Source of the DNA: Candidatus Zixiibacteriota bacterium
GTDB lineage: Bacteria > Zixibacteria > MSB-5A5 > GN15 > FEB-12
NCBI GenBank assembly: GCA_020351995.1
Contig: CP070674.1
Location: 2,601,519-2,665,518, forward strand
DNA: 64,000 nucleotides
Direction: 5' to 3'
Positions 29,633-34,522 of this stretch are shown one piece after another. Each line of letters starts with the position of its first letter. Positions within the stretch are counted from its first letter, which is position 1. The notes below the pieces were generated by a model. That model was not told the origin of the DNA and made no database searches. It saw only the letters and a list, made by a program, of their open reading frames with translations. A program made the position numbers and the translations under genes.

Positions 29633-31084
29633 TTATTCCGGATAAGCGACATCAAGGTTCCGCGCCGCTCCCACTTCATCGAGACGCCGAACCGGCGTGC
29701 TATGAGGTGCCGACGTAACCAGTTCGGGATTATCCTTCACTTCGGCCGCGATCTGTTTCATGACGGTAGCGAAATAGTCCAGTGTTTCCCGGCTTTCGGT
29801 TTCGGTAGGTTCAATCATCATGGCTTCCGGCACAATCAGCGGGAAATAGTTGGTTGGCGGATGCACCCCGAAGTCGAGCAGCCGCTTGGAGATATCCAGT
29901 GTCTTGACCCCTACGGCCTTCTGACGGTTACCCGAGATGACAAACTCGTGCATACAGTGGACATCATACGGCAACTCAAATTCGTCTTTGAGCAGCACCT
30001 TCAGGTAGTTGGCGTTGAGAACGGCATTCTCGCTCACACGGCGAAGACCACTCCCGCCCAGCGTGCGTATGTAAGCGTACGCCCTCACGATATTGGCGAA
30101 GTTGCCGTAGAACGAGTGCAGGCGGCCTATCGAATACGGACGGTCGTAGCTGAAGAACAACTGACCCTTGTCGTCTTTTTCCAGAACCGGAAACGGCAGA
30201 AATTTCTCCAGCTCGGCCGTGACACCGATAGCCCCGGCGCCCGGTCCGCCGCCACCATGCGGGGTAGAGAAGGTTTTATGCAGGTTGAAATGCATGATAT
30301 CGAAGCCAACCTCACCGGGACGGAAAATACCCATGTTGGCGTTCAGGTTGGCGCCATCCATATACATCAGTCCACCCGCTTGGTGAACGATATCTGCGAT
30401 TTCCTTGATGTGGGTTTCGAAAATACCCAGCGTGTTCGGGTTGGTTAACATCATCCCGGCCACTTCGTCGTCCATCACCTCAGCCACCGCTTCAGGAGGA
30501 ATAACTCCCTTGTCGTTGGATTTAACCTGAACGGATTGGAAACCGACCGATGTTACCGAAGCCGGATTGGTGCCGTGCGCAGAATCGGGGATTATTATCT
30601 TATTCCGTTTCTGCCCGTTATGCTCATGGCAAGCCCGCATAATCAGAAGCCCCGCGAACTCACCGTGAGCCCCGGCCACCGGCTGCAGCGATACCGCCGC
30701 GAAACCCGATACCTCGGACAGGTAATCAGACAAATCCCACATCAGTCGAAGAATCCCACGCGCAGAGCTGCAGGGCGCCAGCGGATGATGAGCTGTAAAG
30801 CCATCCATCGAAGCCGCCTGGTCGTTCAGTCTCGGATTGTACTTCATGGTACACGACCCAAGCGGATAAAAGCCCTTGTCGATATGATGATTCTTGACCG
30901 AGAGTCCGACGAAGTGCCTCATCGCTTCCCCTTCGGTTACCTCCGGAAGGGCCGCGGGAGCGCCACGATGAAATTTGGCGGGGATCGCCGCCAGAATTTC
31001 GGGTTTCTTCTTGACCGTGTCCGGGAGCGTACAACCTTTACGCCCCGGCACCGACCTTTCATATATAAGATTAACCTGCCTCAT
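29633..31084 (-). CDS. gcvPB: Glycine dehydrogenase (decarboxylating) subunit 2
   Basis: 483 residues, the C-terminal half of the two-subunit P protein; with GcvPA it decarboxylates glycine and passes the aminomethyl group to lipoyl-GcvH. The PLP Lys is in MHFNLHKTFSTPHGGGGPGA. LPEVTEGEAMRHFVGLSVKN, YPLGSCTMKYNPR and the C-terminal LIVPEAMMIEPTETES are family signatures. ATG 31084 is preferred over TTG 31087. In this cluster gcvPB is separated from gcvPA by a thioredoxin-like lipoprotein and two zinc-ribbon genes. gcvT is not in the window. Confidence 0.96.
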   Translation of the reverse strand: MRQVNLIYERSVPGRKGCTLPDTVKKKPEILAAIPAKFHRGAPAALPEVTEGEAMRHFVGLSVKNHHIDKGFYPLGSCTMKYNPRLNDQAASMDGFTAHHPLAPCSSARGILRLMWDLSDYLSEVSGFAAVSLQPVAGAHGEFAGLLIMRACHEHNGQKRNKIIIPDSAHGTNPASVTSVGFQSVQVKSNDKGVIPPEAVAEVMDDEVAGMMLTNPNTLGIFETHIKEIADIVHQAGGLMYMDGANLNANMGIFRPGEVGFDIMHFNLHKTFSTPHGGGGPGAGAIGVTAELEKFLPFPVLEKDDKGQLFFSYDRPYSIGRLHSFYGNFANIVRAYAYIRTLGGSGLRRVSENAVLNANYLKVLLKDEFELPYDVHCMHEFVISGNRQKAVGVKTLDISKRLLDFGVHPPTNYFPLIVPEAMMIEPTETESRETLDYFATVMKQIAAEVKDNPELVTSAPHSTPVRRLDEVGAARNLDVAYPE

Positions 31085-31135
31085 CAAACTTATATCACTA
31101 TCTCAGCGCCGTCAGGGACCGCGTGACCACTGGAC

Positions 31136-31999
31136 CTACTTGGCCTCCGGCGCTTTGCCCTCCAGTTTGTCAATCTGTTTCTGCGCCCATTCGGATTCTT
31201 CCGATTCCGGATAATGGCGGATAAATTCCTTGAAGGCGGTAATAGCATTAGCCGTGTCATAGCCCAGAACATAAATGTAGGCCCGCCAGATCTCGGCTTC
31301 CTCGGCCACGGGTGTACCGTCAAAATCCTTCATTATTTTCAGGAAGGCTTCCCGGGCACCGTCGTAATCCTTGGCCCGCCGGATCATATCCGCCAGAGCC
31401 ATCCGGCTCTCACCGGACAGGGAATCGGTTGGCTCACCCATGCCGATCACCTTGTCGAACCACTCCGTGGCTTCATCCGGCCGGCCGCTGTATTTGTACT
31501 TTTCGGCAATTTCAAAATACATATCCCGGTCTTCGAGGGTATCCGCCCGGGCCAGCAGATCCTCGAGAGTACCGATACCGTTTTGATAATCTTCAAGTTT
31601 CTGAAGGAACTCATCCGGTTTCAAATAACCGATAATACGGTCAATTTCCTTGCCGTCTTTGTCTGTCAGCACCAGCGTCGGGAAAGCGCTGACAGCATAA
31701 TCTTTGGCGAGAACCGTATCCACTTTGGCATTGAATTTCGCCAGAACCATTTTGTCAACAAAGTAGCCAATTACTATCGAATCTTTCAACACGACCGTGT
31801 CGACCATGTCGCACCACGGTCAGGTATCGGAGTAAAAGTCAAGCAAAATCGGCTTGCCTTCCGCCGCTGCCTGTTTGGCTTCAGCCAGAGTTGTCACAAA
31901 AGGCGCCTCCGTAAGAGGCTCCTGCGGTGCTTTCTGACCACATGATACGGCGATGACGGTTACGAGCAAGACTACCATCAGGATTGCAGCACTTCGCAT
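31136..31999 (-). CDS. Thioredoxin-like TPR lipoprotein, predicted selenoprotein (in-frame UGA in UxxC)
   Basis: Reading through the TGA at 31820-31822 gives 287 residues. The N-terminus MRSAAILMVVLLVTVIAVSC has a lipobox-like end (AVSC), so it should be a membrane-anchored periplasmic lipoprotein. Next is the thioredoxin active-site strand ILLDFYSDT-U-PWCDMVDT; the UGA is exactly at the first Cys of CxxC. AVSAFPTLVLTDKDGKEIDR supplies the cis-Pro region of the same fold, all downstream of the UGA. The C-terminal 130 residues are TPR-like (AEKYKYSGRPDEATEWFDKV, FKEFIRHYPESEESEWAQKQ). A SECIS-like hairpin starts right at the UGA. ATG 31999 has GGAGG upstream. A nonsense mutation is the alternative, but both halves are intact and in frame. 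Confidence 0.85.
31793..31821 (-). promoter_or_regulatory. Bacterial SECIS-like hairpin immediately after the UGA codon
   Basis: On the mRNA the UGA runs into GACCGUG, which pairs perfectly with CACGGUC (7 bp). Inside is a second stem CGAC/GUCG with apical loop AUG, separated by a GUG/A internal loop. Bacterial SECIS elements sit in the coding region just after the UGA, and the apical loop here is about 12-15 bases downstream. Fit to SelB rules needs computation. Confidence 0.65.
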
Positions 32000-32019
32000 A
32001 GCTCCTCCAGTCATCTATC

Positions 32020-32415
32020 CTAAATTAAAGGGTTGTCTACAGCAGGCTGAATTAGTTCGTCCCCCAATACTGCCTGAAGAACCAGCTTAGCCTCATCACC
32101 GAATTCCTTTGGTACTAATATTAGGTCAGCCCCGCTCTCGCGCAGAACCGGGTCGATTTCCATTTGCCTCGGTTGGGAACGGGTATCCAGCGAAGACGGC
32201 AGAAAAACCGAGGGGATATTGTTAGAATCAAGCGAGCCCCGGGCTACTTTGGCCTTTATCTCACTCGTTACGCCCCCGACCAGTACCCAGCTGTCGTCGG
32301 GACTTACCGCCGGAGCGAAACTGTCTGGTATCTTATCTACCAGCTCTTCCCCGCAATCCGGGCAGACCGCCATGTTAACGGGATACTCGTATCCACAAGT
32401 CGGGCAGTACGGCAA
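32020..32415 (-). CDS. Zinc-ribbon + DUF2007-like protein (first of two)
   Basis: 131 residues. Zinc ribbon MPYCPTCGYEYPVNMAVCPDCGEEL (two CxxC knuckles, quoted here as CPTC and CPDC), then an alpha/beta domain from about residue 40: WVLVGGVTSEIKAKVARGSL, DSNNIPSVFLPSS and LILVPKEFGDEAKLVLQAVL. This is the DUF2007 'putative signal-transducing protein' pattern, in which a short ACT-like fold senses or binds an unknown ligand. It lies 20 bases upstream of the selenoprotein start and abuts the second such gene (next base). Confidence 0.7.
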   Translation of the reverse strand: MPYCPTCGYEYPVNMAVCPDCGEELVDKIPDSFAPAVSPDDSWVLVGGVTSEIKAKVARGSLDSNNIPSVFLPSSLDTRSQPRQMEIDPVLRESGADLILVPKEFGDEAKLVLQAVLGDELIQPAVDNPLI

Positions 32416-32763
32416 TTAGCTTTCCTTTCTGTGCCACTTCTTACCAAGCGTCATTTCCAGAATCTCTGACGCTTCTTCAATAAACTCCTCGGGTACCGAT
32501 ATCTCGAACAACGCCGAGCCCGCCTTGTAAAACGGGTTCAGAGGCAGCCCAATATTTCCGAAGAACCCCGATCTCGAAAAAACCACCGCCGGAATCTCAC
32601 TGGTGGCTAACGCCTCTTTACCGAAATCGGCCGACAACTTGTCCTCAATCTCCCCGATTATCGTCCATGTAATTTCACGTTCTTCGTCCAGTTCACATCC
32701 GCAGATATAGCAGGTCGAAGCGTCATCTGCGATCTCCGTGTTACATGCCGGACAGTTAGCCAT
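32416..32763 (-). CDS. Zinc-ribbon + DUF2007-like protein (second of two)
   Basis: 115 residues. N-terminal zinc ribbon with CPAC and CYICGC knuckles, followed by an alpha/beta stretch (ALATSEIPAVVFSRSGFF, LFEISVPEEFIEEASEILEM) similar in plan to the neighbouring 131-residue protein. The two are probably distant paralogues. It starts one base after gcvPA ends and is therefore part of the gcv operon. No defined function; a zinc-binding regulatory or adaptor role is possible. Confidence 0.65.
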   Translation of the reverse strand: MANCPACNTEIADDASTCYICGCELDEEREITWTIIGEIEDKLSADFGKEALATSEIPAVVFSRSGFFGNIGLPLNPFYKAGSALFEISVPEEFIEEASEILEMTLGKKWHRKES

Positions 32764-32764
32764 C

Positions 32765-34096
32765 TTACGCCAACTCCTTCAAGCCGCCGACCAACAGCTG
32801 AATTTCTTCCGTTGTTCGTTTCTCGGTGACGGCCACTATCAAGCAGTTATCGAGACCTTTGTACCATCTACCGGCATTGACGCCGCCGAGAACGCCGTGT
32901 TTCACTAAACTCAAAATTACTTTCTGCGCCGGCACCGGTGTCTTCACCGCGAACTCACGCACGAACGGTGCTTTGAAGTATGGTTCGAACCCATCGAGTT
33001 CAAACAAACTTTGCGACGTTTGTTGCGCCTTTTCGGCCGAAAGCAGCGCCACCTGCTCCAGACCGGCCTTTCCCAGAAGAGTCAAGTACACCGATGCCGC
33101 CGTGGCGCACAAAGCCTGGTTGGTGCAGATGTTAGAGGTCGCTTTCTCGCGCCGGATGTGCTGTTCCCGGGTCTGAAGTGTCAGCACGAACCCGGTCTTG
33201 CCATCAACATCCTTGGTCCGGCTGGCGATTCGCCCCGGCATATATCTCACGAGTTCTTTCTTGGCCGCGAAGAATCCTAACAGGGGTCCTCCAAACGACA
33301 CCGGCATCCCCAGTGGCTGACCTTCGCCTACGACGATATCCGCGCCATACTCGCCGGGGGTTTTCAAAATGGCCTGCGCGATCGGGTCCACGGCCATAAC
33401 CAGCTTGCCGCCAACTTTGTGAGTCGCCTCGGCCACATCCTCAACCTCTTCCAGCAGACCAAAGAAATTCGGCTGCGCCAAAAGGACGCAGGCCGTGGCA
33501 TCATCAATGGCCGAGATCAAGCCTTCCACATCGGTAAGACCATCCTTCATCGGTACCGTAACCAGCTCAACATCACGACCCGATAGATATGTCTTGATAA
33601 CCTCGCGGTAGAGTGGACTGACTGTTTCGGAAAGGAGCACCTTCCCGCGCCGCGTGACGTTGGTCGACAGAATGATTGCCTCCGCGGCGGCCGTGGCGCC
33701 GTCGTACATCGAGGCATTGGCTACATGCATACCCGTCAACCGACAGATGTGAGACTGAAACTCATAGATTACCTGAAGCGTCCCCTGGGCCACCTCGGCC
33801 TGGTAAGGCGTATAGGCCGTCATAAACTCCGGGCGATTTATAATCGTCCCCACCGCCGCCGGAATGAAGTGGTCGTAAAGTCCGCCACCGGCAAAGCAAA
33901 TCAGTCCCGTGTTATTTTCGTTTGAAAGAGTCTCGATTTCCCTGAGCAGGGTCATCTCCGGCGTGGAAGGAATGTCCAGCGGTCTTTTCAGGCGGAGTTC
34001 CTCGGGGATACCGCTGAATAACTCCTCAATATCAGCGACCCCGATTCTCTCGAGCATCATCCGGCGGTCGTTATCGGTGTTGGGAACGTATGGCAT
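32765..34096 (-). CDS. gcvPA: Glycine dehydrogenase (decarboxylating) subunit 1
   Basis: 443 residues, N-terminal half of the split P protein. Features: PYVPNTDNDRRMMLERIGV at the start, ICFAGGGLYDHFIPAAVGTI, the YTPYQAEVAQGTLQVIYEFQ substrate-channel segment, VANASMYDGATAAAEAIILS and TREQHIRREKATSNICTNQA. It forms the heterotetramer with GcvPB encoded downstream. ATG 34096 is chosen; TTG 34102 is an alternative because the Shine-Dalgarno is weak. gcvH lies 45 bases upstream. Confidence 0.96.
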   Translation of the reverse strand: MPYVPNTDNDRRMMLERIGVADIEELFSGIPEELRLKRPLDIPSTPEMTLLREIETLSNENNTGLICFAGGGLYDHFIPAAVGTIINRPEFMTAYTPYQAEVAQGTLQVIYEFQSHICRLTGMHVANASMYDGATAAAEAIILSTNVTRRGKVLLSETVSPLYREVIKTYLSGRDVELVTVPMKDGLTDVEGLISAIDDATACVLLAQPNFFGLLEEVEDVAEATHKVGGKLVMAVDPIAQAILKTPGEYGADIVVGEGQPLGMPVSFGGPLLGFFAAKKELVRYMPGRIASRTKDVDGKTGFVLTLQTREQHIRREKATSNICTNQALCATAASVYLTLLGKAGLEQVALLSAEKAQQTSQSLFELDGFEPYFKAPFVREFAVKTPVPAQKVILSLVKHGVLGGVNAGRWYKGLDNCLIVAVTEKRTTEEIQLLVGGLKELA

Positions 34097-34141
34097 GGCC
34101 AACTTTCTAAGCTTGCAGATACGAAAAAGAACCGGTCAGGT

Positions 34142-34522
34142 TCAGCTAATTACCTGATTATAACCGTCGGCGTCGAGCAATTGTTCAATTTCGCCCTGAT
34201 CCGATATATCAATCTTTATCATCCAGCCTTCCCCGTAAGGATCGCGGTTGATTATCATCGGATCGTCGTCCAGGGCCGTGTTTACCTCGATTATTTTGCC
34301 GCTCAGCGGCGCGAACATATCGGAAACCGCCTTGACCGCTTCGATAGTGCCAAACGGCTTCATCATGCTGACGTCGTCGCCCACCGCCGGGAGCTCCACG
34401 AAAACGATATCTCCCAGTTCGCCTTGAGCATAATCCGTAATCCCTATTGTTGCCGTCGTTCCCTCAAGCTTCACCCACTCATGTTCCTTGCTATATCTGA
34501 GTTCGGTTGGTATGTTAGCCAT
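34142..34522 (-). CDS. gcvH: Glycine cleavage system H protein
   Basis: 126 residues. Lipoyl-carrier protein that shuttles the aminomethyl group between P, T and L proteins. ELRYSKEHEWVKLEGTTATI opens the fold; the lipoylated Lys is in GTIEAVKAVSDMFAPLSGKI; DPYGEGWMIKIDISDQGEI is the conserved C-terminal part. First gcv gene of the cluster, 36 bases after accC. Confidence 0.97.
   Translation of the reverse strand: MANIPTELRYSKEHEWVKLEGTTATIGITDYAQGELGDIVFVELPAVGDDVSMMKPFGTIEAVKAVSDMFAPLSGKIIEVNTALDDDPMIINRDPYGEGWMIKIDISDQGEIEQLLDADGYNQVIS

Follow-up and report, generated by a model that had tools for sequence, protein, structure and literature searches.

What does an in-frame UGA codon mean when it interrupts an otherwise intact thioredoxin gene at the active site, and what would the full-length protein do? 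The question is raised by a minus-strand gene in a 64,000-nucleotide stretch of Candidatus Zixiibacteriota DNA (the window), where it lies within the genes of the glycine-cleavage system. Based on the evidence assembled here, we consider it very probable that the codon is read as selenocysteine (Sec) in a SelB-dependent manner, and that the product, composed of a thioredoxin domain and a TPR tail, most likely acts as an exported thiol-disulfide reductase. The proposed Sec coding, the SECIS element, the Sec machinery and the fold are supported by comparative evidence; the cellular location, the direction of the reaction as a reduction, the link to CcdA and the role of the TPR part are inferred.

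The in-frame UGA and its decoding

The reading frame extends from an ATG at 31997-31999 to a TAG at 31136-31138 on the minus strand (Table 1). Codon 60 is TGA, set in the context FYSDT-U-PWC, where thioredoxins carry the first Cys of the CxxC motif. The original prediction had placed an in-frame TGA at this site, with 227 open codons beyond it, and had expected standard annotation to split the gene; the coordinates and the length of the open frame proved exact on translation, and table 11 does return two ORFs, of 64 and 223 amino acids.

Table 1. Features of the selenoprotein locus, ordered along the direction of transcription (coordinates of the window)
Feature	Position	Strand	Basis
gcvH	34142..34522	(-)	PF01597, 151 bits
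gcvPA	32765..34102	(-)	PF02347, 411 bits; linkage conserved
Small zinc-ribbon/DUF2007-like gene	32416..32763	(-)	PF09413 and PF13240, just below cut-off
Second small zinc-ribbon gene	32020..32415	(-)	PF13240, just below cut-off
Shine-Dalgarno-like GGAGGAG	32002..32008	(-)	Sequence; just 5' of ATG
Selenoprotein gene (thioredoxin + TPR), 287 codons and TAG stop	31136..31999	(-)	Translation with TGA=U open throughout
Putative signal peptide, up to lipobox-like Cys20 (31940-31942)	31943..31999	(-)	Sequence; hydrophobic N-terminus in 112/116 homologues
Thioredoxin domain, residues 38-140	31580..31888	(-)	PF13098 and PF00085; AlphaFold2 model
UGA codon for Sec60, which opens the U-P-W-C motif	31820..31822	(-)	TGA, Cys or Ser at the column in all aligned homologues
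Resolving Cys63 codon	31811..31813	(-)	Invariant in alignment A1
bSECIS hairpin UCGACAC-GGUC-GUGUUGA, loop 31793-31796	31786..31803	(-)	7 pairs in 26/26 distinct sequences; compensatory GC/CG change; bSECIS rules
cis-Pro, residue 107	31679-31681	(-)	P107 invariant in alignment A1
TPR helices, residues 145-280	31160..31567	(-)	TPR_6, TPR_2 and YfiO matches; helices in model
gcvPB	29633..31087	(-)	PF21478 and PF02347; linkage conserved

The gene belongs to a family with matches in 128 of 132 Zixibacteria genomes, including every one of the 41 in the near set, to which the host itself belongs. When each locus was aligned to the family profile and duplicates were removed, 125 distinct rows were obtained, among which the active-site column shows TGA in 68, Cys (TGC or TGT) in 54 and Ser in 3; homologues bearing Sec or Cys at the site, which the original prediction had proposed to look for, are thus plentiful. 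Nine of the 54 Cys rows make up the outgroup, which comes from Ignavibacteriota and related records. The scan of genome contigs used a search pattern with Cys at the site and is therefore silent on Sec copies outside Zixibacteria. TAA and TAG were considered as additional Sec codons and rejected: such stops occur inside some matches, but the active-site column holds only TGA, Cys or Ser codons, so that the stops lie elsewhere. In one genome (G002) the gene is found in two far-apart pieces (L020, L049), each next to stretches of N, and a scaffolding fault in that assembly seems to be the cause.

The host genome, a single contig of 3.6 Mb that named relatives place in Zixibacteria, encodes all four components of the Sec pathway for which the original prediction had called: a tRNA-Sec (69.5 bits; cut-off, 47), SelA and SelB from adjacent genes, and SelD, the three proteins each scoring above their curated cut-offs. 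Two of the outcomes that the original prediction had named as refuting it, a genome devoid of selB/selC and homologues with neither Cys nor Sec at the site, were thus looked for and did not occur. The selD gene (L060, G000:C1:1967464-1968384) has an in-frame TGA of its own in the active-site motif AEVSCAGU, making SelD a probable second Sec protein of this genome, of a known kind. Across the phylum, 116 of 132 genomes have a SelA scoring above the cut-off, and most Cys forms of the family consequently sit in Sec-using genomes; the seven genomes that combine a Sec form with no SelA match, a point against the Sec reading, are all draft assemblies.

These observations bear directly on two other explanations of the UGA. 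A sequencing error or the mark of a pseudogene would agree with the mid-gene stop read by table 11, but 68 distinct homologues share this TGA, each time as the U of UxxC and with the frame intact after it; a base-call error repeated across dozens of genomes is implausible, and we give this explanation practically no weight. Decoding of UGA in some other way, through reassignment to Trp or Cys or through leaky read-through independent of SelB, draws on the fact that an open frame under TGA=X leaves the inserted residue unspecified. It is nevertheless very improbable, considering that TGA terminates 17 of the 44 long ORFs in the window, as an ordinary stop, that the Sec machinery is complete in the genome, that the column alternates with Cys and that a SECIS-type hairpin follows downstream.

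The SECIS hairpin and switching between Sec and Cys

Within the window's own family the 45 nucleotides from the UGA onward align without gaps, and at 19-36 nt from its U they contain a 7-bp stem closed by the loop GGUC, which is paired in 182 of 182 cells across 26 distinct sequences. One of the stem pairs is GC in 17 sequences and CG in the other 9, and the covariation score of 0.248 compares with 0.133 (sd 0.015) in shuffles, none of 500 reaching it; versions of the hairpin slid along the alignment pair at just 27-48%. Published rules for bacterial SECIS elements demand a loop of 3-9 nt with G within its first two bases, a stem of 4-16 bp, a spacing of 16-37 nt and a minimum free energy of -7.5 or below (PMC13188914). 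The window hairpin, with its loop GGUC, 7-bp stem and spacing of 23 nt, agrees with all of these, and with the energy rule only narrowly: the bare stem, as in relatives with the identical hairpin, has -7.0 kcal/mol, and -7.8 is reached with its neighbours in the window.

A different hairpin, starting at the UGA itself, had been offered as SECIS-like in the original prediction, and here the claim does not hold. That structure is the minimum-energy fold of the lone sequence and relatives do not have it; the folding energy of the window RNA (z = -0.92) is not significant. Energy alone was therefore insufficient, and conservation together with synonymous-codon controls revealed the SECIS element at 31786-31803. 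Once the three UGA bases are omitted from the folded stretch, the window RNA forms the conserved hairpin; a ribosome holding the UGA may set it free. A scan of the locus against Rfam gave no match.

As the SECIS segment is also coding sequence, a set of 300 synonymous recodings of its peptide served as the control for every gene. Hairpins obeying bSECIS geometry occur in 59 of 68 Sec genes, the other 9 having none that fits the rules as coded here, which counts against the general reading, and 42 of the 68 surpass their recodings at p <= 0.05, compared with 4 of 51 Cys/Ser genes. A relic of the Sec-type hairpin lies under the Cys codon in L018, L216, L013 and L041 (p <= 0.05), with weaker cases in L171, L019, L021 and L166. 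Judged from the sequences, the predicted element is present in most Sec genes, missing from most Cys genes and retained as an apparent relic in several of the latter.

On a tree built without the Sec column, the Sec label requires 21 changes by parsimony, at least 9 of them forced by well-supported branches and all counted without direction; none of 500 shuffles clusters the label as strongly. One case involves two genomes of one genus. One (G072, locus L189) carries TGA together with a SelA gene; the other (G005, locus L018) has TGT ahead of the same 9-bp hairpin. Its assembly, 85% complete, yielded no SelA match and neither SelB nor tRNA-Sec above cut-off, so that absence of the Sec machinery from it is likely, not certain. 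From its sequences the pair is understood as a recent Sec-Cys switch. The family thus offers a compact natural record of such switching in which relic SECIS elements survive under Cys codons, including a genome apparently without Sec machinery whose congener keeps both SelA and the Sec form.

Protein architecture, operon setting and proposed function

The thioredoxin fold and TPR tail of the original prediction are borne out by a Pfam match to Thioredoxin_2 (PF13098; 53.2 bits, gathering cut-off 27), by conservation of residues 60, 63 and 107 as in thioredoxin-fold oxidoreductases, and by a confident AlphaFold2 model (pLDDT 92), computed from an alignment of the window protein with sequences from genome contigs, in which the thioredoxin domain is followed by helical repeats. 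Among solved structures, the first half is nearest to the C-terminal domain of DsbD and to thioredoxins, the second half to BamD. Three homologues (L174, L180, L228) carry Ser at the Sec/Cys column, and two of them (L180, L228) are also without the second Cys; these copies are probably not oxidoreductases. Of the predicted membrane-anchored lipoprotein, export is the part that is indicated throughout the family, 112 of 116 homologues having a hydrophobic N-terminus of the export type. Lipid anchoring would fit the window protein, whose lipobox-like motif reads AVSC, but appears not to be a family trait, a lipobox-like Cys being found in just 55 of the 116 even by a loose pattern.

In the window, gcvH is followed in turn by gcvPA, a pair of small zinc-ribbon genes, the selenoprotein gene and gcvPB. 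The arrangement with gcvPA or zinc-ribbon genes before the selenoprotein gene and gcvPB after it recurs in 27/30, 11/11 and 15/20 loci of three sets, giving 53 of the 61 counted, and it extends to distant families of the phylum and of the class; the remaining loci are on short or truncated contigs or are copies at other sites. Among 14 more distant loci (L080-L093), 13 are without the gcv link, and the one exception (L083) is itself labelled as Zixiibacteriota. One or both zinc-ribbon genes (32020-32763) are kept at the same place in many Zixibacteria. In family f19 of the class (copies L209-L214, L225 and L252-L255), the two genomes examined (G125, G130) have a gcv-linked copy alongside a Sec copy located away from the operon, as duplication would produce. 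The near-constant gcv position is newly noticed here, and it poses a testable question about envelope redox and glycine metabolism.

The interpretation as a Sec thioredoxin, central to the original prediction, is supported by the encoded machinery, the Sec/Cys column and the thioredoxin and TPR domains. In the mechanism proposed, SelA would make Sec on tRNA-Sec with selenophosphate from SelD, and SelB would deliver it at the hairpin downstream of the UGA. The product would leave the cytoplasm, in this species probably as a lipoprotein, and consist of a thioredoxin domain, whose active site is U-P-W-C, and the TPR repeats that come after it. Its most likely role is that of an extracytoplasmic thiol-disulfide reductase, in which the selenolate, as a fast nucleophile, would attack the substrate disulfide and Cys63 would resolve the resulting selenyl-sulfide, the TPR tail serving to bind or hold partners. 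Electrons could flow from cytoplasmic thioredoxin through the membrane protein CcdA to the Sec-thioredoxin and on to envelope disulfides, by the principle of the CcdA/DsbD pathway. A single CcdA-type protein is encoded in the genome, and a WCGPC thioredoxin lies about 2.5 kb from it.

Two other functions deserve to be weighed against this proposal. The protein might be an envelope chaperedoxin resembling CnoX/YbbN, its TPR part holding unfolded proteins and its thioredoxin part guarding their thiols, with disulfide reduction secondary. The domain order is the same, the best fold match over the full length is to YbbN, and CnoX of Caulobacter combines reductase with holdase activity (PMC6282202); however, the full-length TM-score to YbbN is just 0.31-0.32, and CnoX is a cytoplasmic protein with GroEL and DnaK as partners, unlike the Zixibacteria protein with its export signal. 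We regard this function as unlikely, albeit worth keeping in view. Direct service to glycine cleavage, for instance in the redox control or assembly of P-protein or lipoyl H-protein, would explain the gcvPA-gcvPB setting and its reach across the phylum. Yet glycine cleavage is cytoplasmic and the export signal is general, Sec copies lie outside the operon in G049, G050, G125 and G130 (the gcv-linked copy of G050 having Ser at the Sec site), and a stable gene order can last without shared function; such a role is rather improbable. There is a correspondingly slim chance that glycine metabolism in Zixibacteria includes the exported Sec-thioredoxin as a functional component, forming a phylum-wide redox or assembly link from the envelope to the glycine-cleavage complex. 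The exported Sec-dependent reductase is the function we favor.

Relation to known selenoproteins and thioredoxins

The 119 prokaryotic selenoprotein families or subfamilies catalogued in a 2026 review include thioredoxins with UxxC as well as a PF13098 protein with that motif, but no entry mentions a TPR protein (PMC13188914). We found no description of the family in open-licence literature on Zixibacteria selenoproteins or on thioredoxin-TPR proteins with SECIS elements, and no matching terms in the main text of deep-Sep. No NCBIfam model covers the family: the best matches, the TsoB rhodanese/DsbD fusion-like selenoprotein (NF045694) and the DsbD C-terminal domain, involve the thioredoxin part only and score 47.7 and 47.3 bits against whole-protein cut-offs of 805 and 330. 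The Zixibacteria protein differs from both in having neither the rhodanese nor the membrane domain of DsbD.

One close relation is to the thiol:disulfide interchange selenoprotein of the review (Table 1, PMC13188914), which shares the Pfam family PF13098 and the UxxC motif. It is set apart by its description, which gives no TPR tail; the tail and the phylum-wide place in the gcv operon are features of the Zixibacteria family. Sec thioredoxins of PF00085 (Table 1, PMC13188914) likewise share the thioredoxin fold with Sec at the attacking position, but they are single-domain proteins, to which the present one adds an export signal and TPR repeats. With the CnoX/YbbN chaperedoxins there is a common order of thioredoxin then TPR, whereas their active site is SxxC or CxxC as opposed to UxxC. 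SECIS remnants in Cys homologues are known from other families (PMC1794560); the relics described here are alike in that Cys homologues retain a SECIS-like hairpin, and distinct in that several cases occur inside one thioredoxin family of one phylum. The family is accordingly a new thioredoxin + TPR, UxxC subfamily within a known kind of selenoprotein, not a new kind, and it adds to the known repertoire a selenoprotein subfamily of its own architecture, present in 128 of 132 Zixibacteria genomes and split by the standard code.
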